Assembly (NCBI GenBank): GCA_035048495.1
Contig: CM068549.1
Coordinates: forward strand, 6,369,822-6,433,821
Reading direction: 5' to 3'
From: Euptelea pleiosperma
Taxonomy: Eukaryota > Streptophyta > Magnoliopsida > Ranunculales > Eupteleaceae
DNA length: 64,000 bases
Shown here: in pieces, positions 1,301-57,308 of the stretch
Layout: every line of letters begins with the position of its first letter
Position numbering within the stretch: the first letter of the stretch is position 1
Program-made: the position numbers and the translations under genes
Notes under the pieces: generated by a model
What the model was told of the DNA's origin: nothing
The model's input: the letters and a program-made list of their open reading frames with translations, nothing else
Databases searched by the model: none

Positions 1301-1358
1301 GAGGGTCTGGAACCCTGGTCTTCACTGTGACCATCCTCACGCTTCTCCAGTAGAGTAG
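1301..1358 (-). promoter_or_regulatory. tRNA-like module in U3 (A-box/B-box geometry)
   Basis: On the minus strand, CTGGAGAAGC (D-arm-like) is followed after the tRNA-typical 23 nt by a T-arm CAGGG-TTCCAGA-CCCTC. A T5 run follows about 10 nt downstream (1286-1295 region). Confidence 0.6.
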
Positions 1359-10273: not shown

Positions 10274-10331
10274 TTGACTTATTGGTGGAGTAGACGAGAG
10301 AGAATAAAGAAGACCAGGGTTCAAGACCCTC
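10274..10331 (+). promoter_or_regulatory. tRNA-like module in U3
   Basis: TTGACTTATTGG at the A-box position, D-arm-like GGTGGAGT, 23 nt, then T-arm CAGGG-TTCAAGA-CCCTC. T4 and T5 runs follow from 10338. Confidence 0.6.
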
Positions 10332-15496: not shown

Positions 15497-15997
15497 TATG
15501 AGAAAATGGAGATAAAAGTATTGGTAGAGGGTCTGGAACCCTGGTCTTCACTGTGACCATCCTCACGCTTCTCCAGTAGAGTAGACTATCATTCCTTGCT
15601 GACTCATGTGGCTTTAAATGCTTTGGTCCATCTCTTGGTCATTGGCTCTCCTATTCTCTTCGTTCTTTGGGCCGGCTTTTTGGTCATCTTATTCAGCCCA
15701 TAGTTGGCCCATATCTTCTAGTCATAGCATGTGGGCTCGCAAGTCTCGAGAATTATCCCATCGGGGTTTCCTGCGACAGAAGAAGCGCGTAATGAGACTT
15801 TATCAGAACGACTCAATGTCTAGACTTCCAAAAATGTGTTTAATGCATGCAAATATACCATTTCGTCCAGAAAAGTGTGTTCTACGCAACAAAAGAGACT
15901 CTTACGTAGAAAAGTAGATAAATAGATCATTTTAACGTAGGAGAGTATGAAAATGCTTAGAAGATAACTGTGGAAAATACACACTTTTAAGCGAATA
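15496..15997 (-). mobile_element. NA0 5' LTR remnant (first ~500 bp of LTR, reversed)
   Basis: Near-identical to 1262-1772 and ends with the LTR terminus (minus strand TGATATTCGC) at 15997. No polypurine tract follows, so this is an outer element end and hence the 5' LTR of NA0. The rest of that LTR is missing, deleted together with the 3' half of NA3. It contains a tRNA-like module. Confidence 0.82.
15527..15584 (-). promoter_or_regulatory. tRNA-like module in U3 remnant
   Basis: Same 58-nt arrangement as at 1301-1358: CTGGAGAAGC, 23 nt, CAGGG-TTCCAGA-CCCTC, then a T4 run. Confidence 0.6.
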
Positions 15998-18628: not shown

Positions 18629-18643
18629 ACCTAACCCCCTTAA
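18629..18643 (-). other. CHR polypurine tract
   Basis: Minus strand TTAAGGGGGTTAGGT between the pol stop codon and the LTR start TGTAAAACC. Confidence 0.8.
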
Positions 18644-21532: not shown

Positions 21533-21988
21533 TGATATTCGCTCAAAAGTGCTTATTTTAAGCCATTATCCTTATAGCGATGTCGCATTCTCCTCCGTAA
21601 AACTTGTCTTTTTGTTGACTTTTCCATATAAGAGTTTCTTCCATTGCGTAGAACGCATTCTTTAGACGAAAATCGACTATTTGCATGAAATATACGCATT
21701 TCGGATAGTCTAGTATCAAGGTATTTTAGTTGAATCTCATTATGCGCTTTTTCACTTATAGAAGACCCTATCAGGCGATTCTCGAGGACTCGCAGGCCCA
21801 CGATCAACCACAGAAGACTTCTATCAAAGCTTAAAGAGCCAACAGGCTAGGATAAAAAGATAGAAGACATATACGGGCAAAGCTAGAGGATTGTAGAGCC
21901 GGAACAAGGACTAAGAGAGAGAATAGCTGGAGACCAAGAGAAGGACTTAGGTGTTAAAGGCCACACCAATTGACATCAAAGGATAAGT

Positions 21989-22046
21989 TTGACTTATTGG
22001 TGGAGCAGACGAGAGAGAATAAAGAAGACCAGGGTTCAAGACCCTC
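21989..22046 (+). promoter_or_regulatory. tRNA-like module in U3
   Basis: TTGACTTATTGG-TGGAGC, 23 nt, CAGGG-TTCAAGA-CCCTC. T4 at 22053 and T5 at 22058 follow, as at a Pol III terminator. Confidence 0.62.
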
Positions 22047-22112
22047 CAATGCTTTTATTTTTATATTTTTCTCTCACCTCTCTCCTATTTCTCTCTTTAT
22101 CTATCTATCTTG

Positions 22113-22217
22113 GCCCATGACATAGGCCCATGACCTAAGTCCATGACCCATGACCCATGACCCATGCCCATACCCATGACCCATGCCCATAACCCATGCC
22201 CATGACCATGCCCATTT
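22113..22217 (+). repeat. CCATG(A)CC minisatellite
   Basis: Shorter array than in NA1's own 3' LTR (28989-29130). Confidence 0.9.
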
Positions 22218-22381
22218 GCAACAAGAAGAGAGAATTGGTCTCACTTGACCGATTCTTCTCTCCCCATATCTCTCTATCCTAGTCACTCTCTCTCTCATCT
22301 AACTAACCCATTCCCAACCGTTGGATCTCTCTAGATCCAACGGTCATCATTTTTACAACAAGCAAAAAAGAAAAAAAAAAG

Positions 22382-22391
22382 TCTATAAGAG
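22382..22391 (+). promoter_or_regulatory. TATA box of NA1
   Basis: TCTATAAGAG after an A-run, followed by a CT-rich leader. It is the likely Pol II promoter core. Confidence 0.7.
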
Positions 22392-22650
22392 ATTCATTCT
22401 CTCTCCTTCTTGGGTTGGTTCCCTCCCCCTTCTCTTCCTCTCTTTCTTCTCTCTTTCTTTCTCTTCTTCTTCACCCTTCTTCTCCGGCGAGCAACTCCGG
22501 CAAGCTCACCATTAACGCCTCCACCTCGAAGTGCAAAGCGTCAAACAACAACGTCTCCTTGCTGTCCATTCCATTCACCACAATCAAAGGCTACAATCCT
22601 CAATCCTATTGATTTCTATCCAATAGAAGTTGCACCATTTACCTCTTCAA

Positions 22651-22659
22651 TGGTAAGCT
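22651..22659 (+). promoter_or_regulatory. Splice-donor motif in NA1 leader
   Basis: ATG/GTAAGC with GT at 22653. Conserved at 29567, 35803, 57860 and 62948; at 56789 the context is AAG/GTAAGC. Confidence 0.45.
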
Positions 22660-23129
22660 TCTCTCTAATTCATCTCTCTAACCTTCCTACCTTCTTTCAC
22701 TCTCTTCTTTCCCTCTCTACCTTTACATGCTTTCTAGGGTAATATTTTAATGGCTTTCTAGATTAATTTGATTTAATGTTATTTCCATTGTAAAGCATTT
22801 GAACAAGCATTGTAAGCATTTGTTTTTAGTTTAATGAACAAGTTTTAAATTCAAGTTTAAGTTGTTTTCATTTATTTTGTTTTTCATTCTCGTTTCTCTT
22901 ATATTTTTTTTCATTCTAATAGTTTTAACAATAATCTCAAACATATTTTAAATCAACCTCCACCATTCTCACCCTTTCATTTATTCCAAGCATTTTCTGA
23001 TTATTCTTATTTCTTATTGTGCTAACTAATCCCGAGTGCGGACGATATCCGACACGAGCCACTGTGCAAGTCTGCTTATTTGCAGATTAAGTGAACCAAT
23101 TCGGAGAAATTACAAATATTGTTGAAATC

Positions 23130-23165
23130 AAGGGTTTCCGTAACCGACGACGCGGAAAAACCCTT
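23130..23165 (+). repeat. U5 stem-loop just before the primer site
   Basis: AAGGGTTTCCG pairs with CGGAAAAACCCTT (two bulged A) around a 12-nt loop. AGGGTTT/AAACCCT is the telobox-like part shared by most LTRs here. Confidence 0.65.
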
Positions 23166-23173
23166 ATTTCAAA

Positions 23174-28407: not shown

Positions 28408-30084
28408 TGATATTCGCTCAAAAGTGCTTATTTTAAGCCATTATCCTTATAGCGATGTCGCATTCTCCTCCGTAAAACTTGTCTTTTTGTCGACTTTTCC
28501 ATATAAGAGTTTCTTCCATTGCATAGAACGCATTCTTTAAACGAAAATCGACTATTTGCATGAAATATACGCATTTCGGATAGTCTAGTATCAAGGTGTT
28601 TTAGTTGAATCTCATTACGCGCTTTTTCACTTGTAGGAGACCCTATCAGGCGATTCTTGAGGACTGGCGGGCCCACGATCAACCACAGAAGACTTCTATC
28701 AAAGCTTAAAGAGCCAACAGGCTAGGATAAAAAGAAAGAAGACATATACGGGCAAAGCTAGAGGATCGTAGAGCCGGAACAAGGACTAAGAGAGAGAATA
28801 GCTGGAGACCAAGAGAAGGACTTAGGTGTTAAAGGCCACACCAATTGACATCAAAGGATAAGTTTGACTTATTGGTGGAGCAGACGAGAGAGAATAAAGA
28901 AGACCAGGGTTCAAGACCCTCCAATGCTTTTATTTTTATATTTTTCTCTCACCTCTCTCCTATTTCTCTCTTTATCTATCTATCTTGGCCCATGACATAG
29001 GCCCATGACCTAAGTCCATGACCCATGACCCATGACCCATGCCCATACCCATGACCCATGACCCATGCCCATAACCCATGCCCATGACCCATACCCATGA
29101 CCCATGCCCATGCCCATGCCCATGCCCATTTGCAACAAGAAGAGAGAATTGGTCTCACTTGACCGATTCTTCTCTCCCCATATCTCTCTATCCTAGTCAC
29201 TCTCTCTCTCATCTAACTAACCCATTCCCAACCGTTGGATCTCTCTAGATCCAACGGTCATCATTTTTACAACAAGCAAAAAAGAAAAAAAAAAGTCTAT
29301 AAGAGATTCATTCTCTCTCCTTCTTGGGTTGGTTCCCTCCCCCTTCTCTTCCTCTCTTTCTTCTCTCTTTCTTTCTCTTCTTCTTCACCCTTCTTCTCCG
29401 GCGAGCAACTCCGGCAAGCTCACCATTAACGCCTCTACCTCGAAGTGCAAAGCGTCAAACAACAACGTCTCCTTGCTGTCCATTCCATTCGCCACAATCA
29501 AAGGCTACAATCCTCAATCCTATTGATTTCTATCCAATAGAAGTTGCACCATTTACCTCTTCAATGGTAAGCTTCTCTCTAATTCATCTCTCTAACCTTC
29601 CTACCTTCTTTCACTCTCTTCTTTCTCTCTCTACCTTTACATGCTTTCTAGGGTAATATTTTAATGGCTTTCTAGATTAATTTGATTTAATGTTATTTCC
29701 GTTGTAAAGCATTTGAACAAGCATTGTAAGCATTTGTTTTTAGTTTAATGAACAAGTTTTAAATTCAAGTTTAAGTTGTTTTCATTTATTTTGTTTTTCA
29801 TTCTCGTTTCTCTTATATTTTTTTTCATTCTAATAGTTTTAACAATAATCTCAAACATATTTTAAATCAACCTCCACCATTCTCACCCTTTCATTTATTC
29901 CAAGCATTTTCTGATTATTCTTATTTCTTATTGTGCTAACTAATCCCGAGTGCGGACGATATCCGACACGAGCCACTGTGCAAGTCTGCTTATTTGCAGA
30001 TTAAGTGAACCAATTCGGAGAAATTACAAATATTGTTGAAATCAAGGGTTTCGTAACCGACGACGCGGAAAAACCCTTATTTCA
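28408..30084 (+). repeat. NA1 3' LTR (type A, 1677 bp)
   Basis: Same content as the 5' LTR: TATA box at 29296, donor motif at 29567, longer CCATG array at 28989-29130. It ends TTTCA, then GTAAC. Confidence 0.93.
28864..28921 (+). promoter_or_regulatory. tRNA-like module in U3
   Basis: Identical arrangement to 21989-22046. Confidence 0.6.
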
Positions 30085-30616
30085 GTAACTCCTCTGAAAA
30101 AACATCAGAAAAGTCCCGTACAACCTCTTCTGGTTGAGACTGCAAAACGGCGGTCTCCTCGCAGAGAATATGTGCCAAGAAGCCTGTAGTATCCTCAACA
30201 CTTCTCTTGCTAAAAAAGTGGAAGACAGATCCCCCAGGAATGCTAAACGTCACCTTCTTTCGAAAACAATCCAACGTAGCATGGTAAGCTGAGAGCCAAT
30301 CCATGCCGAGGATCACATCAAAGTCTGATGTCCCCAGTATTACCAGGTCTACAATCATCTCCTGATCGGCGATTTGGATCACAAAAGATTGACAGACTCT
30401 ATCAGTCTCTACACTCTTCCCGACTTGGGTAGTTACACGCAATACAACATCTAATGGCTCAGATTCCAAGCCCAAGGAATGCAAATAGGAAGATGATACA
30501 AAAGAATGTGTAGATCCAGTATCAAACAATACACGAGCTAACGAACTAAAAAGGAGTAAGGTACCTTCGACCACTACATTGGTCGCATCTGCATCCAGTG
30601 CTATCATAGCGAACAA
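30085..30616 (-). pseudogene. CHR protease region (split from RT by NA1)
   Basis: Shows the aspartic protease motif FDTGSTHSFV (near 30510-30540, minus) and the conserved ILGMDWL flap-end segment. It is in frame with the RT part once NA1 and one GTAAC copy are discounted, so CHR had a single gag-pol frame. Upstream, 30617-30880 encodes a Gln-rich linker holding four TAG codons. The protease would mature the polyprotein; this copy is inactive. Confidence 0.88.
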
Positions 30617-34452: not shown

Positions 34453-34510
34453 TTGACTTATTGGTGGAGCGGACGAGAGAGAATAAAGAAGACCAGGGTT
34501 CAAGACCCTC
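34453..34510 (+). promoter_or_regulatory. tRNA-like module in U3 (solo LTR)
   Basis: ACTTATTGG-TGGAGC, 23 nt, CAGGG-TTCAAGA-CCCTC, then T4/T5 runs. Confidence 0.6.
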
Positions 34511-35041
34511 CAATGCTTTTATTTTTATATTTTTCTCTCACCTCTCTCCTATTTCTCTCTTTATCTATCTATCTTGGCCCATGACTGATATTCGCTCAAA
34601 AGTGCTTATTTTAAGCCATTATCCTTATAGCGATGTCGCATTCTCCTCCGTAAAACTTGTCTTTTTGTCGACTTTTCCATATAAGAGTTTCTTCCATTGC
34701 GTAGAATGCATTCTTTAGACGAAAATCGACTATTTACATGAAATATACGCATTTCGGATAGTCTAGTATCAAGGTGTTTTAGTTGAATCTCATTACGCGC
34801 TTTTTCACTTGTAGGAGACCCTATCAGGCGATTCTCGAGGACTGGCGGGCCCACGATCAACCACAGAAGACTTCTATCAAAGCTTAAAGAGCCAACAGGC
34901 TAGGATAAAAAGATAGAAGACATATACGGGCAAAGCTAGAGGATCGTAGAGCCGGAACAAGGACTAAGAGAGAGAATAGCTGGAGAACAAGAGAAGGACT
35001 TAGGTGTTAAAGGCCACACCAATTGACATCAAAGGATAAGT

Positions 35042-35099
35042 TTGACTTATTAGTGGAGTAGACGAGAGAGAATAAAGAAGACCAGGGTTCAAGACCCTC
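35042..35099 (+). promoter_or_regulatory. tRNA-like module in U3
   Basis: Same layout; D-arm-like part reads TAGTGGAGT. The T-arm is intact. Confidence 0.58.
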
Positions 35100-37490: not shown

Positions 37491-37946
37491 TGATATTCGC
37501 TCAAAAGTGCTTATTTTAAGCAATTATCCTTTTAGCGTTATTGCATTCTCCTACGTAAAATGCTCTATTTATCTACTTTTCTACGTAATAGTCTCTTCTG
37601 TTGCGTAGAACACACTTTTCTGGACGAAATGGTATATTTGCATGCATTAAACACATTTTCAGAAGTCTAGATATTAAGCCGTTCTGATAAAGTCTCATTA
37701 CGCGCTTCTTCTGTCGCAGGAAACCCCGATGGGACGATTCTCGAGACTTGTGGGCCCAAATCGATCATGAAAGCCCATTATCAAAGCTTAAAGAGCCCAC
37801 ATGCTATGACTAGAAGATATGGGCCAAATATGGGCTGAATAAGAGGACCAAAAAGCCGGCCCAAAGAACGAAGAGAGCAGGAGAGCCAATGACCAAGAGA
37901 TGGACCAAAGCGTTTAAAGCCACATGAGTCAGCAAAGAATGATAGT

Positions 37947-38004
37947 CGACTCTACTGGAGAAGCGTGAGGATGGTCACAGTGAAGACCAAGGTTCCAGAC
38001 CCTC
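37947..38004 (+). promoter_or_regulatory. tRNA-like module in U3
   Basis: CTACTGG-AGAAGC, 23 nt, CAAGG-TTCCAGA-CCCTC. One base of the T-stem differs from the 3' LTR copy. TTTT follows at about 38014. Confidence 0.58.
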
Positions 38005-38466
38005 CGCCAGTGCTTTTCTCTCTATTTTCTGATACTTTCTCTCTCATCTCTCCTTATTCTCTCTCTCTCTCTTCATCTCTCGGTCCTCGAATCTACTGAC
38101 CTAACCCCAGAACTCCTGCCCATCGGCTCTATCTCATCTCCCTTAGCTTTCTGACCGTTGGATCTTCCATCGGACCGTTGGATCTTCAATCGGACCGTTG
38201 GATCTCTCTAGATCCGTCGATCTATCAATCTGGGTCCCAATCAAGTCACCATCCATCCGATCGCCATCAGACTGTCTGTCACATCATCTTTTGAGACGAT
38301 GAACATCATCAATCCATGTGGGCCAGTAGCCGGGCCCATCATCATCGACCCACTGTCCGACCAGTTAGTGGACCCCGTGAATTTCCAAAAAATTTTAATT
38401 AAATTTCAAAAAATGGGGGGTCCACTAAATGGGGACATTCCCCAAGGAAAAGTAGACTTTTACTTA

Positions 38467-38500
<34 letters not shown>
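38467..38500 (+). repeat. TA microsatellite upstream of ATH1 TATA box
   Basis: About 14 TA units between an A-run and a T-run. The matching place in the 3' LTR (about 50211) has a single TA. Confidence 0.92.
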
Positions 38501-38506
<6 letters not shown>

Positions 38507-38548
38507 TATTTCAAAAATACCCTATTTCCATTAAAGGAAATAGGGAGC

Positions 38549-38559
38549 TTTATAAGAGG
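38549..38559 (+). promoter_or_regulatory. TATA box of ATH1
   Basis: TTTATAAGAGG; the 3' LTR copy is at 50265-50275. Confidence 0.75.
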
Positions 38560-38703
38560 AGGGAGAAGGGTTCGTTTGAACCCTAATCCCCCTCCAATCT
38601 CTTCCATTCTCTCCCCCTATCAATCCCGCACGGATCCCTTCACCCTTAGCCCCATTTTCCTTTTCTTCTCCACCTTCTTCTTCATCTTCTTCATCACGTC
38701 ATT

Positions 38704-38730
38704 GCCGGAGTTGCAGGCTGCAACTCCGGC
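38704..38730 (+). repeat. LTR leader hairpin 1 (12-bp stem)
   Basis: GCCGGAGTTGCA-GGC-TGCAACTCCGGC, about 150 bp after the TATA box. Confidence 0.92.
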
Positions 38731-38863
38731 CGATCAAGATCTCCTCCACCATCTCTTGCTGGCCACCCCTTACCCCTCCATTAACGACCTCGCCATCCTC
38801 TTGCAACGGAGTAGCAGCCCCCATCACCACCCAAACCAGCAGCCCCATCTTTCTTTAACGTTG

Positions 38864-38888
38864 CTGGAGTTGCAACCTGCAACTCCAG
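38864..38888 (+). repeat. LTR leader hairpin 2 (11-bp stem, covarying pair)
   Basis: CTGGAGTTGCA-ACC-TGCAACTCCAG. Compared with hairpin 1, a C-G pair has become T-A on both arms. Confidence 0.92.
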
Positions 38889-39380
38889 TCCGTTTCACCA
38901 GCAACCACCGCCTGCTACAGCCTGCTGCATCCTCCCTTCACCTTGGCTGTTGCCAAGCCATCCCTCTGCCTGCAGCCGCTCCCCATCTCCACATCTTCCA
39001 ACGGCAGTTCGCTGCCAAAAGACTCCACCACGTCTTGATCTCCATCCCACGTGCTGGTTTGCAACGTACCAAACCACCATTGCCTGCATTGCCTCTGCCT
39101 TGCTGCCTTCACCGTTAAAAGCCACCATTGGAGGACTGCGTGGCTGACTTTTATCCTCCTTTGCCGCCTCTCTCTCAGCCGCCATCATCCCTCTCTTCTT
39201 CCTCACCGCTAAACCCAAGGAAAAACCAAAAAAAAAAGAAAAAAAAAAGAAATAGAGAAAGAAGAGAGAAAAAAAAAAGACGGTTGTGTGTGCTCAGCCC
39301 ATCCCGAACTATCCCACGCATCTACAGTCAACACCACCAGCGAACCACTCACCGGGCAGATCTTATCTCTCCAAATAAGT

Positions 39381-39391
39381 TGAAGGTAAAA
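39381..39391 (+). promoter_or_regulatory. Splice-donor motif in ATH1 leader
   Basis: AAG/GTAAAA with GT at 39386; repeated at 51111 in the 3' LTR. Confidence 0.42.
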
Positions 39392-39855
39392 CATTTTTTT
39401 ACCATAGTTTCTATCTCTAGAACTTTCTCCCTTTCTCTCTCTCTCCTCCCTTTCTCTCTCTAGAATAATGCTTTCTTTCTCTCTATTAGATTAGTCTTTC
39501 ATTCAAGCAATGTAAGCAACTTTTATTTCAAATAATAAAATAGTTATTTTTTTGGGCAATTTGTTATTGTTGATCATTCTATATGCTTTTTGATAAATTC
39601 TCTCTCTAAGAAAATAGATTTTTAAATCTCGTGATCATCACTCTCACCCCTCCATCCTTTATTTTTATCATTTTCTGTGGAAAAATTCTTCATTTTATGT
39701 TCTTGTCTGCGCTACTAATCCCGAGGGTGGATCGACATCCGAAACTTCCCACTGTGCAAGAATTCTAAATTTTGCAGGATAATCGGATCAAATTACAAAT
39801 CTTGTTGATTCTAGGGTTTCCGTAACCAACGACGCGGAAAATACCTACTTTCAAA

Positions 39856-39869
39856 TGGCGCCGCTGCCG
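39856..39869 (+). other. Primer binding site of ATH1 (tRNA-Asp, one mismatch)
   Basis: TGGCGCCGCTGCCG, one base different from the non-autonomous copies at position 9. Confidence 0.85.
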
Positions 39870-41693
39870 CTCGGGTGACCGGAAGTCCGAAAAAGGACGT
39901 AAAGACGGAATTGGAAAGTTGCTGAAGCGAAAAGCTACTCAATTTGGACAGCCTGACCTTTTCGGGAAACTTTCTATTTTTGGTTTTTAGTGATTTTTAG
40001 CAATTTTTAAATTACTATTTTTAATGCCTCGGAAGGCCGAGTGCAAAGTTGTAATAATTTAGGAATTTTATTGCTTTCCAAATAACTGCTAGATCTTGTT
40101 CTAGGGTTTTTTAGAAACCCTAGATTAAGTGGAAAATACAAAAAAATTCAAAAATCAAAATTCAAAAAAATTAGGGTTTTATATTCTGCAGATTTTTAGA
40201 AATCACCAATCAAGGATTTGCGATTTTTGGAAAGCTTCTAAAATCTTGAAACTTTGCTAAATTAGGGTTTTCCCTTTTAGAAGTTTCCTCTTTAGAAGAA
40301 TTTCTATCTTTAGAAATCTTCCGAATTTGGAAAAGTCTGCAAAAGGAAATACCCCAAATCTAGCAGAATTTCAATTTTGGGAAATTTCCCAAAATAGTAA
40401 GGGATCTCGCAATCAAATCTTGGAAGATCTCCACCGTTCGGTAAACTTTCCAATCTAGGTATTTTCCAATCTGGGAATTCCTAAATTTTAACCCATTTCG
40501 AACTTGGAAATTAATTCAAAAACTTGCCTAAATCCAGTGCTTGTTCAGTGAACCCTAAAAAGGCAAGGATCTTCCAAATAGAATCCCAAATACCTAGACC
40601 GTGCGATCTAACTGTTTCTGCAGGAACACGATCCAGTGTGGGTAGGGAGCGAAAGCTCAAAGAGGTAGAGTCGGGCCCAAGCCAATTAGGATACCCCTCC
40701 CTAACCCACGGAGGCGACCCCGTGGCGTGGCCCACGGGAGGTACGTCCCTATCCTCGCCTTGAGTGCGATACAGAGTAATTTGGGTGAATCATTGCCGCA
40801 TGTCTATTTGTTTTCTAGCAACAACTTATTCGACTTGCGTGGCATGGCCGCTAATCAATCAACTCTAAGAGAGCAGACCCAGCTCCAAATTGAAACTGGT
40901 GGGATTTCATCACCCACCTCATCATTCCATCTGATTTGATCCCAAGGCTCCATTTAATTAAAAAGAATCAAGAAGTAGAGCCAATTAGCCCGGTGTTCGA
41001 GGAAAAATCCACGCAAAGCGAACCCGCTTAACATCCAATCGAAATAAGACCACGAGCGCGGGTCCCTATTGTCTAACACACCCATAAGTTCCTGCTACTC
41101 AAGTACACTGAGCTCGACGTGGCATCTTGGACTATTCGGCGGTTAGTTGCGTGTGGACTAGGAACACGCATCAACCCTAGCTTAACCCGAGGGAACACTC
41201 TTCTTATCCACTTGACCAATCCGGTTAGTCTGGGACGTACTTAAGTCAGCCATTGTGCCGCACGTCTGTCTAGGCTTCGGATTACCTTGTTGTTAACTAG
41301 AGTTAGTACTAAAGGATTCGCTCTGAAGAGTGTAGCCTGGTGAGAACCTCTGAGTACAAAACAGTTAGTCCGGCGGTTAAAAGATAAACCAGTGGTCCGC
41401 CCACTGTCATAATCTACTCTAGCCCCAAAACTAACAAAGATAATTCCTAAAATATATCTTGATTGATTAGAATAGGATTATCTGTGCTTGGTGTGCATCA
41501 TTTAGGATAGTGTTCCTCTCTGGCAACTTTTTGCCAAGTATAGAGCTTGCCTCATTTGCGTATGCCCGTTTGGAATCGTCCGAACAAGCGCTTGATTCGA
41601 TTTGAGAATCACGTCCCTACAGTGGATCCTCCACTGAATTCTTCCCCATCTCTTTCCCCACCCGCCTCCCCCAGTACTATTACCTTTGTAGTC
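39870..41693 (+). mobile_element. ATH1 leader, 1.8 kb
   Basis: No supported gene. Blocks shared with NA leaders include the AGGGAGCGAAAGCTCAAAGAGG segment near 40646, the GTCTAACACACCCATA segment near 41070 and the CGTACTTAAGTCAGCC segment near 41236. An upstream in-frame extension of gag (from 41547) lacks an ATG. Confidence 0.8.
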
Positions 41694-42845
41694 ATGGCAG
41701 TCGAAAGACCTCTTATCGAGACGTTCGCCCCTATCTCTGCTAATCCGCCAACTTGCATTATTCTCCCACCTACTACGGCGGTAAAATTTGAGATCAGGCC
41801 GCAGACGATCCAAATGCTGCCTACCTTTCGTGGTCTCCCAAGAGAAGACCCATATTCCCATATTAGGGAATTCCAACATGTCATCCTACTTTTCAAGAAT
41901 CAGAACCTCGATGATGACAATGTGCGTCTGCGAGTTTTCCCATACTCGCTCAAAGACCGAGCCTCAGATTGGCTTTATTCCTTACCCGCTGATTCAATCA
42001 GCAGTTGGAAAGAGTTGGTGGGCAAATTCATGTCTAAATTCTACCCCATGACTCGGACCAACCAAATGAAGCAACTCATCCAGGACTTCCGACAGAAGTC
42101 CGATGAGAAATTTTTTGAAGCGTGGGATAGATTCCAAGACTACCTGACTAAGTGTCCCCACCATAGCATCGACAAGGGCAATCTTATCCATGTCTTCTAC
42201 AAGGGACTTACTGATGAGTCCCGGACCATGGTAGAGTCAATGTGCCAAGGAAAATTCCTGCACCAAACTCCGACCGATGCATACAAATTCTTGGGAGAGT
42301 TAGGCGAAAACTCTCAACATTGGACGACTGACTCAGAGTTTAGTCGAACCACTTCGGTCCAAAGGACAACCAAGGGACATGATGCTACAGCTGATACTGA
42401 GCTTCGATCTGTCATTCAAGAGTTGAGCAAGTCAGTCTCGGCACTGGCTGTGTCAGTACAAAAGCCTACTCAACAATCCACCCCAGTCATGCATGTGGGA
42501 CACGAGAGCCCTATGGAATCCTGTACCCTCTGTCTGCAACCCTCCCATACTACTGAGCATTGTCCTTTGAATGAAGGATGGTCTAATCCTCTTCAGGAAG
42601 AAGTTTGTGCTTTCAGCACATACAAACCACCCACTCAAAACTCGTATAGTCAATCTTATCATCCGGACACGAGAAACCACCCTAACTTCTCTTGGAGGCC
42701 TCAGTCTACTCAACCACAAGCTCAACCTCCACGTCAGCCTCAGGGCATGTATCCTCCTGGGTTCAATCAACCCAATAGGCAATTCAATCAGGGACAATAC
42801 CAGCAGAATCAGTACCCATCTACTCAGAACCAGCAGTTCCAATAG
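41694..42845 (+). CDS. gag: ATH1 Gag (capsid and zinc knuckle)
   Basis: Start chosen at the ATG of MAVERPLIETF because the non-autonomous ORFs start at the same place; the open frame upstream to 41547 has no ATG before it. 383 codons. The capsid-like retrotransposon gag domain covers residues ~40-200 (LPTFRGLPREDPYSHIREFQ, DWLYSLPADSISSWKEL, YKGLTDESRTMVESMCQG). A CCHC zinc knuckle follows at C277, C280, H285, C290. The C-terminal part is Gln/Asn-rich. Gag assembles the particle and binds genomic RNA. It ends at TAG 42843-42845, after which the same frame runs on into Pol, so this TAG is either a suppressible stop or a mutated Gln codon. Confidence 0.93.
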   Translation: MAVERPLIETFAPISANPPTCIILPPTTAVKFEIRPQTIQMLPTFRGLPREDPYSHIREFQHVILLFKNQNLDDDNVRLRVFPYSLKDRASDWLYSLPADSISSWKELVGKFMSKFYPMTRTNQMKQLIQDFRQKSDEKFFEAWDRFQDYLTKCPHHSIDKGNLIHVFYKGLTDESRTMVESMCQGKFLHQTPTDAYKFLGELGENSQHWTTDSEFSRTTSVQRTTKGHDATADTELRSVIQELSKSVSALAVSVQKPTQQSTPVMHVGHESPMESCTLCLQPSHTTEHCPLNEGWSNPLQEEVCAFSTYKPPTQNSYSQSYHPDTRNHPNFSWRPQSTQPQAQPPRQPQGMYPPGFNQPNRQFNQGQYQQNQYPSTQNQQFQ

Positions 42846-45800
42846 GGTCAATACTCTGGACAACAGAGCACATTTCAGAATCAGCAAAGAGTTCCCCAGA
42901 ACTTTCAGAACCAACAGATTGTCCCAACTAATTCTTCCGCCTATAACTATAATGCCCCGATGAGCTCGAGTCGCGAATTGGTGCCTCAGCTCCCATTAGC
43001 TGCTCCCCAACAGTCGGTCCCCAAACCCAGTATCGAGGACCTTCTAGCTCAACTCATTACTCAATCTATGCAACGCCTAGAGCAACAGCAACAGCAATCC
43101 ATGCTTCGTCTAGAGCAACGCTTAGGTAACCTGGAAGCTGAGAAAGCTAAAGGCATCTTCCCTAGCCAACCCATCGCTAACCCAAAAGGAAATGCCAAAG
43201 GAGCAGTATATGAGATCGGTTCCCAATCTCAAAGCCAGAATGAGAATTGTCAAGGGGAGGTGCAAGCTGTAACCACCCTACGATCTGGAAAAACTGTGGA
43301 CATGGGAGTCCAACCACCACCGGTGCCATCTCCAGCACCCATCACTCGCACCGTGGAAACTAGTCCAAATCCTACCTCTGCTTCTTCTACCTCTGCACCA
43401 ACATCAGATATCCCTGTGCAGAAATCCAAGGCTAAAGACAAATCCATTTGTCGAGTAAAGCCTCCCTTCCCAGACAGACTTGTCCAAGATAAGCGGGATC
43501 AGCAATTCTCTGAGATCTTAGATGTCTTTAAAGACGTCCAGATCAATATCCCATTCCTTTCTGCTATCAAGCAAATCCCTTCCTATGCCAAATTCCTCAA
43601 GGACTTGTGCATAGTTAAGCGGCGTACGCATGTACCCAAAGCTGCCTTCTTGGCCGAAAAAGCTACCGCGTTCATTCAACGCAATAGTGTGATCAAACAC
43701 AAGGATCCAGGTAGCCCAACTGTCCAATGTGAAATTGGAGACAACTTTAGCTGCACTGCCTTGCTAGATTTAGGGGCTAGCGTTAACCTCATACCATTCT
43801 CGGTATATCAACAGTTAGGACTGAAAGATATGAAGCCTACCAATGTCACCCTGAAATTGGCTGATCAGTCCATCAAGATTCCAAGAGGAATCATTGAAGA
43901 TGTCCTAGTAAAAGTCGCTGACTTTTATTATCCTGTGGACTTTATCATTCTAGACACCGAGCCATGTCAGGATAACCGCATTCCGGTCATCTTAGGCCGT
44001 CCATTCCTTGCCACTGCGAACGCACACATCGGGTGCCGGGACGGAAACATGTCCATTGCTTTCGGTAACCTCAAAGCTGAGGTCAACATCTTTCGTTTAA
44101 TGCAACAAGATGCCGATCGCGAAGTGACCGATGGAATGTGTGCCGTTGAGAGTCTAATCCCGGACTCCACCGAAGATATTCTTAAGCAGTATCTAGAACA
44201 CTTTGGAGCTGACTTTGCAACAGAGTCAGCTATTTTTGATCTCAATGATCTTTTGGAGACTGCTCCATTGCTAGAGTTGCCCGCTCCACTCATCGAGTTC
44301 GAGCCTCTGATAACCATGGCCAGAGAACCCATCCTTCCTTTACCTACTGAAGTCAAACCTCTTCAATCCGTGTCTTCTGTGACACCTATTTCTACTCCAT
44401 CTGCTCCAATATTGGAGCTTAAGCCTCTTCCCACAGATCTTTCCTATGCCTATCTTGGTCCTAAGGAAACCTACCCTGTCATTATTGCTTCCGCTTTGTC
44501 TGAGAGTGAACGTAAGAAACTTCTCGAGCTACTCAACGAGCACAAATCTGCGATAGGTTGGACTATAGATGATATTCGAGGCATAGACCACTCGGTGTGC
44601 CAACATCACATCTATCTTGAGGATGAATCCAAAACCTCTCGAGAACACCAGAGGAGATTGAACCCCGTCTTGAAGGATGTAGTCCGGGACGAGGTCCTTA
44701 AACTGTTAGATGCAGGTATCATTTACCCCATCTCCGATAGCAAATGGGTGAGTCCTATTCATGTCGTCCCTAAAAAGGCAGGATTCACAGTTGTGGAAAA
44801 TGAGAACAAGGAAATGGTAACCCAACGCCTGAAGAAAGGGTGGAGAGTCTGCATCGATTACCGACGACTCAACACCAACACTAGGAAGGACCATTTTCCT
44901 TTACCCTTCATAGACCAAATGTTGGAGAGACTAGCAGGTCACTCCTATTACTGCTTCCTCTATGGTTACTCAGGGTATAATCAAATACCAATCGCCCCTG
45001 AGGATCACGAGAAGACAACCTTCACTTGTCCCTTTGGCACTTTTGCCTACAAGTGCATGCCCTTTGGCCTCTGCAATGCACCCGCGACCTTTCAAAGGTG
45101 TATGATGAGCATATTCTCTGACATGGTGGAAAAATTCCTCGAAGTCTTTATGGACGACTTCTCAGTTTTTGGGTCATCCTTTGATGACTGTCTGAACCAT
45201 CTAGGGCTTGTACTTCACCGCTGTCAGGACAAGCGACTTGTCCTCAATTGGGAGAAATGCCACTTCATGGTGAAGAAGGGCATTGTTCTGGGACATGTCA
45301 TTTCCCATCAGGGCATTGAGGTCGACAAAGCTAAAATCGATATCATCTCGACCTTGCCCATTCCTAAGTCCGTGCGTGACATCCGGTCCTTTTTGGGACA
45401 CGAAGGATTCTATAGGAGATTCATCAAGGACTTCTCTCAAATCGCTCGACCTCTGTCCCATCTCCTGGCTAAAGATAGTCCTTTCGACTTTAATGCTGAC
45501 TGTGTCAAGGCATTCGAGCATCTCAAATCTGAGCTCACTACTGCGCCCATTATCTGTCCCCCAGACTGGACTCTACCTTTTGAGGTAATGTGTGATGCTT
45601 CTGACTACGCGTTAGGTGCTGTTCTAGGGCAGAGAGTTGACAAAAGGTCACACGTGATCTACTACGCGAGCAAAACTCTTAACTCTGCCCAAATGAATTA
45701 CTCTACCACTGAGAAAGAACTCTTGGCGGTAGTCTTCGCCCTTGATAAATTCCGTCAGTACCTCTTAGCCACTAAGGTGGTTGTGTACACTGATCATGCA

Positions 45801-47234
45801 GCCCTTCGTTATCTCATGTCGAAAAAGGAAACCAAACCTCGATTAATTCGATGGATTCTCTTACTGCAGGAATTCGACCTCGAGATTAAGGATAAGAAAG
45901 GAACTGAGAATGTAGTGGCTGATCACTTGTCTAGACTGACTTTAGAGTCATCCTTCGACACCCAGCCCATCCCTGAAACCTTTCCAGACGAACAACTGTT
46001 CGCCATCTCTGTTAATCCTTGGTATGCTGACATTGTCAACTACCTTGTCACCGAAGAAATGCCTTCACACTGGTCAAAACAGGACAAAAGCCAATTCCTA
46101 GCAAGAGTTAAGTACTACTCTTGGGATGACCCTTATTTGTATAAATACTGTCCTGACCAGATCATTCGTCTCTGTGTCCCTGAGTCGGACCAACTCAATA
46201 TCTTGTCCTCGTGTCATGACCAACCTTGTGGTGGTCATTTCAGTACTAAGAAAACTACAGAAAAAGTTCTGCAATGCGGATTCTACTGGCCCACATTATT
46301 TAAAGATGCCCATATCTATAGCAAAACTTGTCCTAATTGCCAGCATCTAGGCCGCATCTCCCAGAGGAACATGATGCCCCTAACTCCCATCCAGGTCGAT
46401 GAAATATTTGACATTTGGGGCATCGACTTCATGGGCCCCTTTCCAGTTTCCTATGGTTTTGAGTACATTCTCCTTGCGGTAGACTATGTATCCAAATGGA
46501 TAGAAGCCATTCCCACCAAGACCAATGACCACAAAGTGGTGGTCAAATTCCTAAAGGAGTTCATCTTCGCCAGATTCGATGCCCCTAAGGCCATCATTAG
46601 TGATGGGGGCACCCATTTCTGCAATAGGATATTCGAGAAATTAATGAAAAAGTATGGGGTAACCCACAAGGTTGCCCTAGCTTATCATCCGCAGACTAGT
46701 GGTCAAGTGGAGGTTTCTAATCGTCAGATCAAGCAGATCTTGGAGAAGACAGTCAATACCACACGTAAAGACTGGTCTACTCGTCTCACTGATGCTTTAT
46801 GGGCATACAGAACCGCCTACAAGACCCCACTCAATATGTCTCCCTATCGTCTCGTCTTTGGGAAACCTTGTCATCTACCGGTAGAGATTGAACATCGTGC
46901 CCTGTGGGCCATTAAGAAACTCAACTTCGACCTCGACTCTGCAGGGGAGGAGAGAAAACTTCAAATGAATGAGTTAGAAGAACTCAGAAATGATGCCTAC
47001 AACTTGTCCAAGAATTACAAAGCAAAAATGAAGTGGATACATGACAAGAGCATCCTCAGGAAAGAGTTCCATCCAGGACAGAAGGTCCTTCTTTATAATT
47101 CCCATCTTCATCTCTTCCCTGGGAAATTGAAATCTAGGTGGACCGGTCCTTATACGGTCACAGCAGTCACACCCTTTGGGGCAATCACTATTGAGGATCC
47201 CAAGGATCACTCCTCTTTTCAGGTCAATGGGTAG
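42846..47234 (+). CDS. pol: ATH1 Pol: protease, RT, RNase H, integrase
   Basis: Same frame as gag. Residues are counted from the first ATG at 42960 (1424 aa). Gln-rich linker ~1-160; Athila pre-protease segment ~175-230; aspartic protease DLGAS at 270-274; RT with FMDD at 730-733; RNase H with D879, E918, D945 and D988. Integrase has an HHCC finger from H1086 and the catalytic triad D1156, D1215, E1251 (the last pair spaced 35). The C-terminus [18 protein letters not shown] fits Athila and lacks a chromodomain. The stop TAG (47232-47234) falls where relatives continue through a Gln-Arg-Leu motif, and the frame stays open another 17 codons after it. All catalytic residues are intact. Confidence 0.95.
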
Positions 47235-47608
47235 CGTCTAAAACAGTTCCATGAACTTGACGTATTGTTCATTCAGACTTTTTAGATCGATCTCATTGAT
47301 CCTATCTATGTCGACTGATGATCCACTCAGTCTCCTGTGCTCCAACTTGGTTGGGGGTGCCTGTCACCCCCGTCATGTCTAGCTGAAGACATAAAACTTA
47401 GCGCTTTCGGAAAGGCAATTCCGGTATTCCTAGAGTACATGAGTCTCATGCATTTGTTATTACTGTCATATCTCTGGAAATGCAGGTACATTCATTCTTC
47501 CGATCATCAGGTACCACACACTGTCGAGTTTCTGCCCACTTGGTAACATCCTCCCTGAACCTTTGCACCATCATCACTGATTTTTCATCATTTTATATCC
47601 CGGTCATG

Positions 47609-47626
47609 AGCACCGAGGACGGTGCT
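47609..47626 (+). repeat. 3' region hairpin (7-bp stem, AGGA loop)
   Basis: AGCACCG-AGGA-CGGTGCT before ATATTTTGGTTGGGGGTGGG. Confidence 0.92.
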
Positions 47627-49187
47627 ATATTTTGGTTGGGGGTGGGGTATTTACCAAAACTCATGTCTTTATTTTGATAAAAAAAAAAAAAAAAAAAACG
47701 TTGTTTTTGGGGTGATTTCCGATGTTCTCCAAAAGTTTTCTAGAATTTCAAAAATGTGTCAAATATCCTGACTTTGATTAGCTAAAAACCTTTGTTAAGA
47801 CAGTATTGAGGATGTCAATTTTTGTTTAAAGTTAGCGTTGAGTCAAGTCAAGCGTGACTACAGCAGGTTTGAAAACTCAGAAAAACTCATATTCGGCACA
47901 ATTGTACACTATCAATATCAGAGTCACCCTAAGTTTAGAAATTCTGGAGATCCTGTGAGAATAATTGTGGAGACCTAACCCAGTGAGCTTTCGAGCCTTT
48001 AATTAATTCAGAGCGTTATACAACAATTCTGAGTCACAAGATGACTCACTATTCTTCATGCCCGCAATATTCGTTGAGAGATCTCATTATCTTTTGCTTC
48101 GATCATAAAACTCGGAACGACATCAAAATTGGATTACTACAACAGAACCTTCTCTGTATCTAGTCAAGACAGTATACATGATAGTGCAAACCCTAGAAAA
48201 TGATTTAGGCCATTTTTTTCTAAACCATTCAGCCTTTTTACTCACCTGAATTATACTTCACTAGAAACCCTTTGAACCTTTCTATAAAAGCCTTTTCTTT
48301 GCAAACCCATCAACCTAAAATCCAGTCCAGCTACGAAATATGACTGGCTACCCTTATTTTGAGATGGACAAAAGAATAACTGATGTGGGTGTACCGTGAA
48401 AAAGAAAAGTAAAGAAGAAGAATCAAAAGGAAAAGAAAGTGGTTCAAGCTAAAAACAAAATATGGAAAGAAAGTATGAAGAAGAGCTGAAAAGAAATTGA
48501 GCAGTCTTAGAAATATCAAGAAAAAGAAAAAAATACGAAAAAAAAAAAAAAAAAAAAAAGAGGAAAAAGAACCAGATAATGGTGTTACGCCGCGGGAAAA
48601 ATGCAAGAAAATGACAATATCCTCTCAAGATCTTTGAAATCCTGTATCCCTTTATCTCTCTACACCTGACCTAAGCCTCATTACAACCCAGGAAAGTCCT
48701 ACTTGATTCTAGGATAGTACGATCATAAAATGTGGAGATTGGAGAAAGAGAAGCTATAGAGTTTGATCTGACGTTCCTGAGTGAAGTGGTATTCCAATCA
48801 TGAGATCTTCTTCTGTTAAAGATGTCCTTCCTTCAAATAAAACATATGTGAGATCTTTTGCCTCTTTATATTAAATATATCTCCTCACATATAAATTGAG
48901 AGAAAAGAAGAAAACCCTTCTTGTGTGATTCTATTCTGAGTGCTAAACATGTGAGATTTGAGGTCGAGGCATAAAAACTTAGAGGTGATCTGGAAATCTT
49001 TACTGTCGGATGATGAGAACGTTGAGTACACACACACGCAGAGTCTGACTATTCTGGGTCATGATTATCAGTTTGTAGTCTTGCGAAAACTTTCAAACTC
49101 TTCGCTAGCATGTAAATGTTTTCCCGGAGCTAATGTGAAAGTGTGCAGCATGTGCAGAGCCCTTTTAAGCTCATTTATTTCGCACTA

Positions 49188-49206
49188 ATTGCCAAGGATT
49201 GGCAAT
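49188..49206 (+). repeat. Hairpin adjoining the polypurine tract
   Basis: ATTGCCAA-GGA-TTGGCAAT. Confidence 0.92.
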
Positions 49207-49211
49207 ATGCT

Positions 49212-49223
49212 AGTTGGGGGTTG
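49212..49223 (+). other. Polypurine tract of ATH1
   Basis: AGTTGGGGGTTG abutting the 3' LTR. Confidence 0.87.
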
Positions 49224-49679
49224 TGATATTCGCTCAAAAGTGCTTATTTTAAGCAATTATCCTTTTAGCGTTATTGCATTCTCCTACGTAAAATGCTCTA
49301 TTTATCTACTTTTCTACGTAATAGTCCCTTCTGTTGCGTAGAACACACTTTTCTGGACGAAATGGTATATTTGCATGCATTAAACACATTTTCAGAAGTC
49401 TAGATATTAAGCCGTTCTGATAAAGTCTCATTACGCGCTTCTTCTGTCGCAGGAAACCCCGATGGGACGATTCTCGAGACTTGTGGGCCCAAATCGATCA
49501 TGAAAGCCCATTATCAAAGCTTAAAGAGCCCACATGCTATGACTAGAAGATATGGGCCAAATATGGGCTGAATAAGAGGACCAAAAAGCCGGCCCAAAGA
49601 ACGAAGAGAGCAGGAGAGCCAATGACCAAGAGATGGACCAAAGCGTTTAAAGCCACATGAGTCAGCAAAGAATGATAGT

Positions 49680-49737
49680 CGACTCTACTGGAGAAGCGTG
49701 AGGATGGTCACAGTGAAAACCAGGGTTCCAGACCCTC
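49680..49737 (+). promoter_or_regulatory. tRNA-like module in U3
   Basis: CTACTGG-AGAAGC, 23 nt, CAGGG-TTCCAGA-CCCTC, then TTTT. Confidence 0.6.
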
Positions 49738-50419
49738 CGCCAGTGCTTTTCTCTCTATTTTCTGATACTTTCTCTCTCATCTCTCCTTATTCTCTCTCTC
49801 TCTCTTCATCTCTCGGTCCTCGAATCTACTGACCTAACCCCAGAACTCCTGCCCATCGGCTCTATCTCATCTCCCTTAGCTTTCTGACCGTTGGATCTTC
49901 CATCTGACCGTTGGATCTTCAATCGGACCGTTGGATCTCTCTAGATCCGTCGATCTATCAATCTGGGTCCCATTCAAGTCACCATCCATCCGATTGCCAT
50001 CAGACTGTCTGTCACATCATCTTTTGAGACGATGGACATCATCAATCCATGTGGGCCAGTAGCCGGGCCCATCATCATCGACCCGCTGTCCGACCAGTTA
50101 GTGGACCCCGTGAATTTCCAAAAAATTTTAATTAAATTTCAAAAAATGGGGGGTCCACTAAATGGGGACATTCCCCAAGGAAAAGTAGACTTTTACTTAA
50201 AAAAAAAAAAATATTTTTTTTTTATTTCAAAAATACCCTATTTCCATTAAAGGAAATAAGGAGCTTTATAAGAGGAGGGAGAAGGGTTCGTTTGAACCCT
50301 AATCCCCCTCCAATCTCTTCCATTCTCTCCCCCTATCAATCCCGCACGGATCCCTTCACCCTTAGCCCCATTTTCCTTTTCTTCTCCACCTTCTTCTTCA
50401 TCTTCTTCATCACGTCATT

Positions 50420-50446
50420 GCCGGAGTTGCAGGCTACAACTCCGGC
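50420..50446 (+). repeat. LTR leader hairpin 1 (one mismatch)
   Basis: As 38704-38730 but with G to A in the right arm. Confidence 0.88.
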
Positions 50447-50579
50447 CGATCAAGATCTCCTCCACCATCTCTTGCTGGCCACCCCTTACCCCTCCATTAA
50501 CGACCTCGCCATCCTCTTGCAACGGAGCAGCAGCCCCCATCACCACCCAAACCAGCAGCCCCATCTTTCTTTAACGTTG

Positions 50580-50604
50580 CTGGAGTTGCAACCTGCAACT
50601 CCAG
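50580..50604 (+). repeat. LTR leader hairpin 2 (11-bp stem)
   Basis: CTGGAGTTGCA-ACC-TGCAACTCCAG. Confidence 0.92.
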
Positions 50605-50944
50605 TCCGTTTCACCAGCAACCACCGCCTGCTACAGCCTGCTGCATCCTCCCTTCACCTTGGCTGTTGCCAAGCCATCCCTCTGCCTGCAGCCGCTCCCC
50701 ATCTCCACATCTTCCAACGGCAGTTCGCTGCCAAAAGACTCCACCACGTCTTGATCTCCATCCCACGTGCTGGTTTGCAACGTACCAAACCACCATTGCC
50801 TGCATTGCCTCTGCCTTGCTGCCTTCACCGTTAAAAGCCACCATTGGAGGACTGCGTGGCTGACTTTTATCCTCCTTTGCCGCCTCTCTCTCAGCCGCCA
50901 TCATCCCTCTCTTCTTCCTCACCGCTAAACCCAAGGAAAAACCA

Positions 50945-50976
<32 letters not shown>

Positions 50977-51578
50977 AATAGAGAAAGAGGAGAGAAAAAA
51001 AAAGACGGTTGGGTGTGCTCAGCCCATCCCGAACTATCCCACGCATCTACAGTCAACACCACCAGCGAACCACTCACCGGGCACATCTTATCTCTCCAAA
51101 TAAGTTGAAGGTAAAACATTTTTTTACCATAGTTTCTCTCTCTAGAACTTTCTCCCTTTCTCTCTCTCTCCTCCCTTTCTCTCTCTAGAATAATGCTTTC
51201 TTTCTCTCTATTAGATTAGTCTTTCATTCAAGCAATGTAAGCAACTTTTATTTCAAATAATAAAATAGTTATTTTTTTGGGCAATTTGTTATTGTTGATC
51301 ATTCTATATGCTTTTTGATAAATTCTCTCTCTAAGAAAATAGATTTTTAAATCTCGTGATCATCACTCTCACCCCTCCATCCTTTATTTTTATCATTTTC
51401 TGTGGAAAAATTCGTCATTTTATGTTCTTGTCTGCGCTACTAATCCCGAGGGTGGATCGACATCCTAAACTTCCCACTGTGCAAGAATTCTAAATTTTGC
51501 AGGATAATCGGATCAAATTACAAATCTTGTTGATTCTAGGGTTTCCGTAACCAACGACGCGGAAAATACCTACTTTCA

Positions 51579-55657: not shown

Positions 55658-57308
55658 TGATATTCGCTCAAAAGTGCTTATTTTAAGCCATTATCCTTAT
55701 AGCGATGTCGCATTCTCCTCCGTAAAACTTGTCTTTTTATCGACTTTTCCATATAAGAGTTTCTTCTATTGCGTAGAACGCATTCTTTAGATGAAAATCG
55801 ACTATTTACATGAAATATACGCATTTCGGATAGTCTAGTATCAAGGTGTTTTAGTTGAATCTCATTACGCGCTTTTTCACTTGTAGGAGACCCTATCGGG
55901 CGATTCTCGAGGACTGGCGGGCCCACGATCAACCACAGAAGACTTCTATCAAAGCTTAAAGAGCCAACAGGCTAGGATAAAAAGATAGAAGACATATACG
56001 GGCAAAGCTAGAGGATCGTAGAGCCGGAACAAGGACTAAGAGAGAGAATAGCTGGAGAACAAGAGAAGGACTTAGGTGTTAAAGGCCACACCAATTGACA
56101 TCAAAGGATAAGTTTGACTTATTGGTAGAGTAGACGAGAGAGAATAAAGAAGACCAGGGTTCAAGACCCTCCAATGCTTTTATTTTTATATTTTTCTCTC
56201 ACCTCTCTCCTATTTCTCTCTTTATCTATCTATCTTGGCCCATGACATAGGCCCATGACCTAAGCCCATGACCCATGACCCATGACCCATGACCCATGCC
56301 CATACCCATGACCCATGACCCATGCCCATGACCCATGCCCATGCCCATTTGCAACAAGAAGAGAGAATTGGTCTCACTTGACCGATTCTTTTCTCCCCAT
56401 ATCTCTCTATCCTAGTCACTCTCTCTCTCATCTAACTAACCCATTCCCAACCGTTGGATCTCTCTAGATCCAATGGTCATCATTTTTACAACAAGCAAAA
56501 AAGAAAAAAAAAAAAAGTCTATAAGAGATTCATTCTCTCTCCTTCTTGGGTAGGTTCCCTCCCCCTTCTCTTCCTCTCTTTCTTCTCTCTTTCCTTCTCT
56601 TCTTCTTCACCCTTCTTCTCCGACGAGCAACTCCGGCGAGCTCACCATTAACGCCTCCACCTCGAAGTGCAAAGCGTCAAACAGCAACGTCTCCTTGCTG
56701 TCCATTCCATTCGCCACAATCAAAGGCTACAATCCTCAATCCTATTGAGTTCTATCCAATAGAAGTTGCATCATTTACCTCTTCAAAGGTAAGCTTCTCT
56801 CTAATTCATCTCTCTAACCTTCCTACCTTCTTTCACTCTCTTCTTTCCCTCTCTACCTTTACATGCTTTCTAGGGTAATATTTTAATGGCTTTCTAGATT
56901 AATTTGGTTTAATGTTATTTCCATTGTAAAGCATTTGAACAAGCATTGTAAGCATTTGTTTTTAGTTTAATGAACAAGTTTTAAATTCAAGTTTAAGTTG
57001 TTTTCATTTATTTTGTTTTTCATTCTCATTTTTTTTATGTTTTTTTTCATTCTAATAGTTTTAACAACAATCTCAAACATATTTTAAAACAACCTCCACC
57101 ATTCTCACCCTTCCATTTATTCCGAGCATTTTCTGATTATTCTTGTTTCTTATTGTGCTAACTAATCCCGAGTGCGGACGATATCCGACACGAGCCACTG
57201 TGCAAGTCTACTTATTTGCAGATTAAGTGAACCAATTCGGAGAAAATACAAATATTGTTGAAATACAAGGGTTTCCGTAATCAACGACGCGGAAAAACCT
57301 TACTTTCA
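55658..57308 (+). repeat. NA2 3' LTR (type A, 1651 bp)
   Basis: Short CCATG array (56240-56350), TATA box at 56518, donor motif at 56789, ends TACTTTCA, then ATGAC. Confidence 0.93.
56114..56171 (+). promoter_or_regulatory. tRNA-like module in U3
   Basis: TTGACTTATTGG-TAGAGT, 23 nt, CAGGG-TTCAAGA-CCCTC, T4/T5 runs. Confidence 0.6.

Follow-up and report, generated by a model that had tools for sequence, protein, structure and literature searches.

A tRNA-like block with A-box and B-box halves in the probable U3 of Athila-like LTR retrotransposons of Euptelea pleiosperma

The 64,000-nucleotide stretch of Euptelea pleiosperma DNA analyzed here (the window; C10:6369822-6433821 of a 613-Mb genome) harbours LTRs of several types, all of which begin with TGATATTCGC. 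Type A LTRs are 1.6-1.7 kb long and type B LTRs 2.36 kb. Two type B LTRs, 98% identical to each other, bound an element of 14.1 kb (Table 1) with a gag ORF matching Retrotrans_gag and a frame of 1424 codons, pieces of which matched protease, reverse transcriptase (RT), one RNase H region and integrase in a Pfam run on pieces of 41691-42842 and 43500-47231. The sequence TGGCGCCG stands after the LTR of this element and is taken by us to be a tRNA-Asp primer site. The RT piece matches plant proteins with up to 79% identity (among the best 120 of 7989 matches). Gag, protease, RT, RNase H and integrase were thus all found and a second (aRH) RNase H was not, which is the composition given for Athila, a non-chromovirus Ty3/gypsy lineage, in excerpts of PMC6317226. 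The element flanked by type B LTRs, with its 14.1 kb, its gag and pol regions and a target site duplication (TSD), is therefore not a miniature one.

Antisense to the gag ORF (41547-42845) an Rfam match to snoR71 was found at 42064-42169 (minus strand; 45.1 bits at a cut-off of 40); the snoR71 family, or its match here, may rest on retrotransposon gag sequence. Frames at 18640-20940 and 30077-31468 (both on the minus strand), which adjoin type A LTRs, have Pfam matches to RNase H, SH3_Tf2-1 and gag and, judged by these matches, look like a different Ty3/gypsy element. LTR pieces are joined head to tail at 34585/34586 and 57309/57319; the junctions coincide with the GCCCATGAC minisatellite of type A LTRs or lie close to it, as if recombination had occurred there.

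In an initial annotation of the window, a tRNA-like Pol III promoter module was proposed for the U3 of every LTR copy, based on a block of 58 nt. This block is indeed present at all twelve positions where it had been reported, and a search of the window for LTR starts (20-mer, at most 5 mismatches) gave 12, each with a block. The layout of 18 + 23 + 17 nt is exact in the 58-nt blocks of the window, which span tRNA positions 8-65, and all 12 occurrences of GGTTCNANNCC in the window are such blocks. The first half ends in (T/C)TGGnnnAGC as described, except that the copy at 35042 has TTAG instead of TGG. The T-runs said to follow the block were also found: in 11 of the 12 window copies TTTT or a longer run begins between +6 and +9, and in the D copy at 60713 TTT lies at +8 and TTTT at +20. 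The location in the U3 is probable. Boxes of TATAAGAG are present at 831-851 of type A LTRs and at 1043-1060 of type B LTRs, about 320-550 nt downstream of the block, and it is likely that the boxes of both types correspond to each other and represent the Pol II TATA, which would place the block in the U3.

Table 1 Features of the window; possible functions are predictions
Feature	Positions	Strand	Remarks
Type B element	37491..51578	+	LTRs 37491-39853 and 49224-51578; CAGTC at either end; ORFs for gag and pol inside
Block, type A	21989..22046	+	Inside type A LTR 21533..23171 (+)
A-box/D-arm-like half, type A	21989..22006	+	12/18 versus D-arm motif
T-arm-like half, type A	22030..22046	+	B box GGTTCAAGACC at 22033-22043
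CAA, possible Pol III start	21977..21979	+	12 nt upstream of block; meaning according to excerpts of PMC11700998
TTTT, possible Pol III terminator	22053..22056	+	
TATAAGAG box, possible Pol II TATA of type A LTR	22384..22391	+	
Block, type A	10274..10331	+	
Block, type A	28864..28921	+	
Block, type A, 3'-truncated LTR	34453..34510	+	
Block, type A	35042..35099	+	
Block, type A	56114..56171	+	
Block, type A	62308..62365	+	
Block, type B, 5' LTR of coding element	37947..38004	+	
Block, type B, 3' LTR of coding element	49680..49737	+	
Block, type B'	1301..1358	-	
Block, type B', in LTR fragment	15527..15584	-	
Block, type D, most tRNA-like 58-mer of window	60713..60770	-	
Near-perfect tRNA D-arm/A box, type D	60753..60770	-	17/18
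T-arm/B box, type D	60713..60729	-	

The same block was found in the neighbourhood of the window. When 200 kb of surrounding sequence was added (264 contiguous kb), 31 of the 33 LTR starts detected with the same 20-mer (at most 5 mismatches) carried the block, with its T-arm 20-mer at an offset of 452-495. One of the two starts lacking it is truncated and joined to coding sequence, and the other is deleted inside the block. Three further blocks in the 264 kb, without a detected LTR start, each have LTR-like flank on at least one side. Another 40 kb yielded 7 more LTR starts, all with the block. The 58-nt layout is also kept in further LTR types, E to H, and in variants. Across nine types the block columns are gap-free, apart from an additional T that type G has at the 3' edge; the flanking LTR sequence gains and loses pieces of 10 nt while the spacing within the block remains nearly gap-free.

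Genome-wide, the T-arm half (23 letters, at most 3 mismatches) has 13,517 sites and the first half of type D (30 letters, at most 3 mismatches) 1,792; neither reversed pattern gave a single site. At all 7 places common to both searches, among the matches listed, the halves start exactly 35 nt apart. In 20 short stretches around exact T-arm matches on C1 to C4 the first half always precedes the T-arm, and the register is kept in 19 of them, one (L056) having an indel; as these stretches were picked by their exact T-arm, they are uninformative on T-arm conservation. No block copy was present in one 10-kb sample each from C1, C2, C3 and C5. A 10-kb sample (L048) contains, at 3738-9243, a word near AAGATTCATGACAGTC six times at distances of 0.5-2.3 kb, unrelated to the LTR block. 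Among the matches listed, exact T-arm matches recur every 12.2-12.5 kb in three arrays on C3 and C4, and exact D-half matches recur every 12.5 kb in one array on C4. Block matches spaced in this way lie at C3:9138557-9162960, C4:28325340-28349770 and C4:34796566-34905189. The regular spacing suggests head-to-tail arrays of full-size elements and hints at full-size D units.

Among viral contigs no relatives were found. Relatives did appear in two contigs of bacterial genomes, NZ_QPKJ02000021.1 and NZ_JABGCL010000066.1, with an RT identity of 71%; they look like plant contaminants and were rejected, contamination being the probable source of a plant-type Ty3/gypsy RT in both assemblies. The two contigs, whose assemblies bear CPCC strain names, are 99.7% identical over 9013 nt and hence nearly the same contig. 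NZ_QPKJ02000021.1 ends, by position, an estimated 600 nt before the expected start of the 3' LTR and therefore offers no outside LTR for comparison.

The likeness to tRNA is strongest in type D. All 58-mers of the window were scored at tRNA positions 8-65 for general tRNA invariants and for D- and T-stem pairs (maximum 28). The D copy at 60713 (minus strand) is the best 58-mer on either strand with 25, while the maximum in a Markov sequence of 600,000 bases was 22; type A copies score 20-22 and type B copies 18-19, the latter unremarkable by itself. The first half of type D had been called nearly perfect, and this holds: it matches the general tRNA D-arm motif at 17 of 18 positions and its A box agrees with TRGYNNARNNGG at 11 of 12. 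Of all 527,964 18-mers in the 264 kb, 22 reach 14/18 and only two reach 16/18 or more, both of them D blocks. The chance of such a D half is at most 4e-6 per position, with the spacing fixed. A D3 copy from the adjoining 40 kb likewise scores 17/18, and the other types score 14 (H, F and A3), 13 (E), 12 (G, A and B) and 11 (B'). Even with the D group omitted, a sequence made of the commonest letters in the five remaining groups agrees with the motif at 15 of 18 positions, so that the tRNA-like form is probably ancestral and did not arise late in D by accident. The A-box-like stretch of types A and B, at tRNA spacing, agrees with TRGYNNARNNGG at 8-9 of 12 positions. Type 2 (tRNA-type) Pol III promoters have the B-box consensus GGTTCRANNCC. 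This consensus is perfect in types A, A3, D, D2, G and H; D3 (L045) has T62, R57 is lost in B and B', and A58 is lost in E and F.

Conservation within the block is uneven. When nine types were aligned, each represented by a single copy, mean pairwise identity was 0.904 for the T-arm, a value that 0.39% of 518 windows (the T-arm's own included) attain outside the LTR tip, compared with 0.667 for the A half, 0.512 for the middle, 0.539 for the 40 nt upstream and 0.568 for the 40 nt downstream. From LTR sequence outside the block a tree of 38 copies was built, on which parsimony steps per column were compared with control windows. The B box has 0.64 steps per column (as low in 14 of 450 control windows; locally in 1 of 189) and the T-arm 0.88 (20 of 438; locally 1 of 183). 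The A box (positions 8-19) has 1.92 steps per column, with 277 of 448 control windows as low or lower, and is not constrained on the tree; positions 15-25 have 1.45 (131 of 450 as low). The LTR between tip and block has 1.76 steps per column, and the middle of the block changes fastest, with 2.94. The T-arm/B-box half is thus constrained; the A-box half is not detectably so and changes at the LTR average. A lack of conservation of the A-box half and the 23-nt spacing beyond neutral expectation was named in the initial annotation as an argument against the promoter; this argument is half borne out, since the A-box half is no better conserved than the LTR average, while the B box is. Within each arm, positions generally invariant in tRNAs are no more conserved than others. 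A B box is expected to keep positions 57-58. Between types the T-loop differs precisely there, at 57 (A, C or G) and 58 (A or T), with C57 in B and T58 in E and F, and not at 59-60. On the 38-copy tree there are two steps each at 57, 58 and 59 and none at 60.

A tRNA call at the LTR blocks, for which tRNA searches had been proposed, was not obtained: neither Infernal nor ARAGORN found a tRNA in the window. The Rfam tRNA model had no match there, one scan gave only a weak T-arm match, to the tRNA-like mascRNA (E 7.8), and none of the 63 scored genome tRNA matches (of 39,339 candidates) falls in the window. In 38 block sequences the tRNA arms pair in 61.3% of cells, compared with a shuffle mean of 62.9%, and their covariation score is below the shuffle mean; the unslid tRNA register does pair better than slid registers (25.6-57.9%). 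A functional tRNA or a tRNA pseudogene was rejected on the basis of these searches and of the pairing and covariation test. Five predicted RNAs of 80-85 nt fold like shuffles (z -0.57 to +1.13), and a structured small RNA or microRNA-like hairpin was unsupported in these five predicted transcripts.

Possible companions of a Pol III promoter were scanned at 62 sites, one of which (L047) was a false positive and was left out. CAA occurs within 20 nt upstream in 55 of the remaining 61 blocks, mostly at -11 to -14. TTTT occurs within 25 nt downstream in all 61, at +6 to +11 in 57, and is absent from the inside of 60. Counted by type, CAA at -16 to -11 is present in 8 of 10 types, more than in any of the other 15 bins (0 to 7 types each), and TTTT in 9 of 10 types at +20 to +24 versus 7 of 10 at +5 to +9. 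As TTTT is equally common further downstream, in a T-rich stretch, the terminator is unspecific and provides weak evidence. In plant tRNA genes, according to excerpts of PMC11700998, CAA is found within 10 nt upstream in 36-45% and a T-run of at least four within 50 nt downstream in 67-72%.

The proposed tRNA-like Pol III promoter is upheld by the layout of A box and B box at canonical spacing in all LTR types seen, most strongly in D, and the CAA and TTTT around the block agree with plant Pol III genes, unspecific as the TTTT is. It is weakened by the unconstrained A half, the variation at T-loop positions 57-58 and the empty result of the tRNA callers in the window. A tRNA-type origin of the block is considered likely. 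Whether this origin took the form of a tRNA-type Pol III promoter ancestral to the Athila-like U3, nearly intact in D but elsewhere cut down to a B-box-like site, is judged to be evenly balanced, and this is nevertheless the reading preferred here. A piece of a tRNA gene, or the head of a tRNA-derived SINE, with its type 2 Pol III promoter, would have entered the U3 of an ancestor of the Athila-like clade. In type D, where both boxes are nearly intact and canonically spaced, TFIIIC would bind and TFIIIB would be loaded upstream; Pol III would initiate close to the CAA and terminate at the TTTT, and the resulting RNA of about 80-85 nt would not extend beyond the U3. The genome RNA would begin further downstream, at the Pol II TATA (some 320-550 nt away), and the predicted Pol III product, too short to serve as genome RNA, would be a side transcript. 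Transcription of D-type copies by Pol III is possible but somewhat doubtful. In A, B, E, F, G and H the block would more likely be a binding site for TFIIIC or another factor than an active Pol III gene, since the A box has drifted and the T-arm/B-box half alone is constrained; binding of TFIIIC in these types is a slightly more doubtful possibility than transcription in D.

The uneven constraint is also what would be expected if the T-arm half were the site of another factor, either for TFIIIC docking or boundary formation or for a Pol II regulator, with the A-box half as an ancestral remnant without a role. Constraint indeed spans positions 44-64 (as low in 22 of 430 windows and in none of 179 local ones), A44, A45, A47 and A60 are stepless on the tree although none of them is an A-invariant of tRNA, the A half is free of constraint, and the probable TATA box follows the block after a few hundred nt, which places the block where Pol II regulatory sites are usually found. 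This explanation, which we hold to be rather unlikely, leaves two things unaccounted for: the D-arm at 17/18 in D and D3, and a spacing that is nearly gap-free although 10-nt pieces come and go in the flanks. A single insertion of a SINE or tRNA fragment into the ancestral LTR, decaying ever since and present family-wide only by descent, would fit the drift of the A-box half at the LTR average and the fast middle (2.94 steps per column). Such a passive relic is nonetheless improbable, because the T-arm half changes more slowly than its local surroundings (where 1 of 183 windows is as low) and D-type copies on four other contigs have kept the first half. Least probable is chance or convergence, in which the T-arm would be an unrelated conserved inverted repeat (GGGT-N5-ACCC) and the likeness to a D-arm accidental. 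The first halves outside D are by themselves only mildly tRNA-like (11-14/18), and A60 is stepless, with a T54-A60 pair possible; yet at a chance of at most 4e-6 per position with fixed spacing the D half is hard to obtain accidentally, and the tRNA-like letters are also the commonest among the non-D groups (15/18).

If the promoter reading is carried further, the layout may allow a second RNA polymerase to act on these LTRs. A tentative and rather doubtful extension would be a full-size, coding Ty3/gypsy lineage whose U3 holds an entire Pol III gene of tRNA derivation, in many hundreds to thousands of genomic copies, making a short RNA or recruiting TFIIIC independently of the Pol II promoter, whole in D and reduced to a B-box dock in A and B. 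Such a dual-polymerase LTR could keep the U3 accessible, seed or dodge silencing, or bound heterochromatin. If active, it would equip the LTRs of a coding lineage of plant retrotransposons with Pol III promoters and spread TFIIIC sites through a single genome in very large numbers. Type D makes the Pol III proposal directly testable, and tRNA-like matches in plant genomes may stem from full-size LTRs.

A and B boxes at tRNA spacing are also a feature of tRNA-derived SINEs. A SINE of this kind is a plausible donor, from which the block here differs by its near-fixed offset in the LTR; a free-standing SINE-like copy with its own TSD and tail was not seen in the stretches read. Full-length elements with Pol III units besides a Pol II promoter are known from foamy virus and bovine leukaemia virus, and in one simian foamy virus the units are encoded in the LTR (excerpts of PMC7693620, PMC7104284 and PMC4992882). 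These are, according to the same excerpts, animal retroviruses that make microRNA precursors, whereas the five RNAs predicted here fold no better than shuffles.

Among plant elements, the block had been compared with Cassandra. The comparison is sound insofar as these TRIMs also carry the promoter of a small RNA gene within the LTR of a plant element. However, the Cassandra promoter is derived from 5S rRNA and gives an element-long Pol III transcript in a short non-coding element (excerpts of PMC10886601), while the likeness here is to tRNA, with the predicted transcript confined to the U3; no 5S rRNA match was found in the window, at the gathering cut-off or at E up to 10. The Helenus TRIMs are nearer relatives, to judge from the same excerpts. 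They have a tRNA-derived sequence with A and B boxes inside the LTR, a derivation that is probable for the block described here; the surroundings of the boxes are conserved, a functional tRNA is mostly absent and the TSD in plants is 5 bp, features counted as shared with the present elements, and use of Pol III is in both cases predicted. Helenus elements are non-coding, 311-1263 bp long and, in plants, known from one species (Selaginella), compared with type A and B LTRs of 1.6-2.4 kb and a type B element of 14.1 kb with gag and pol. Their autonomous counterparts were argued to need Pol II and to be unlikely to share a long LTR stretch with Helenus, and not a few Repbase LTRs were reported to resemble part of a tRNA, TRIMs alone having been analyzed (excerpts of PMC10886601). 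For Athila or other long plant LTRs no description of such a module was found in titles and abstract openings of mainly open-access literature. If active, the module would contradict the expectation, published in PMC10886601 as excerpted, that elements of this size rely on Pol II and that Pol III promoters serve miniature LTR elements only. The Helenus precedent (PMC10886601, excerpts) is one of miniature elements, whereas the module described here belongs to large ones, type B at least being a coding element.
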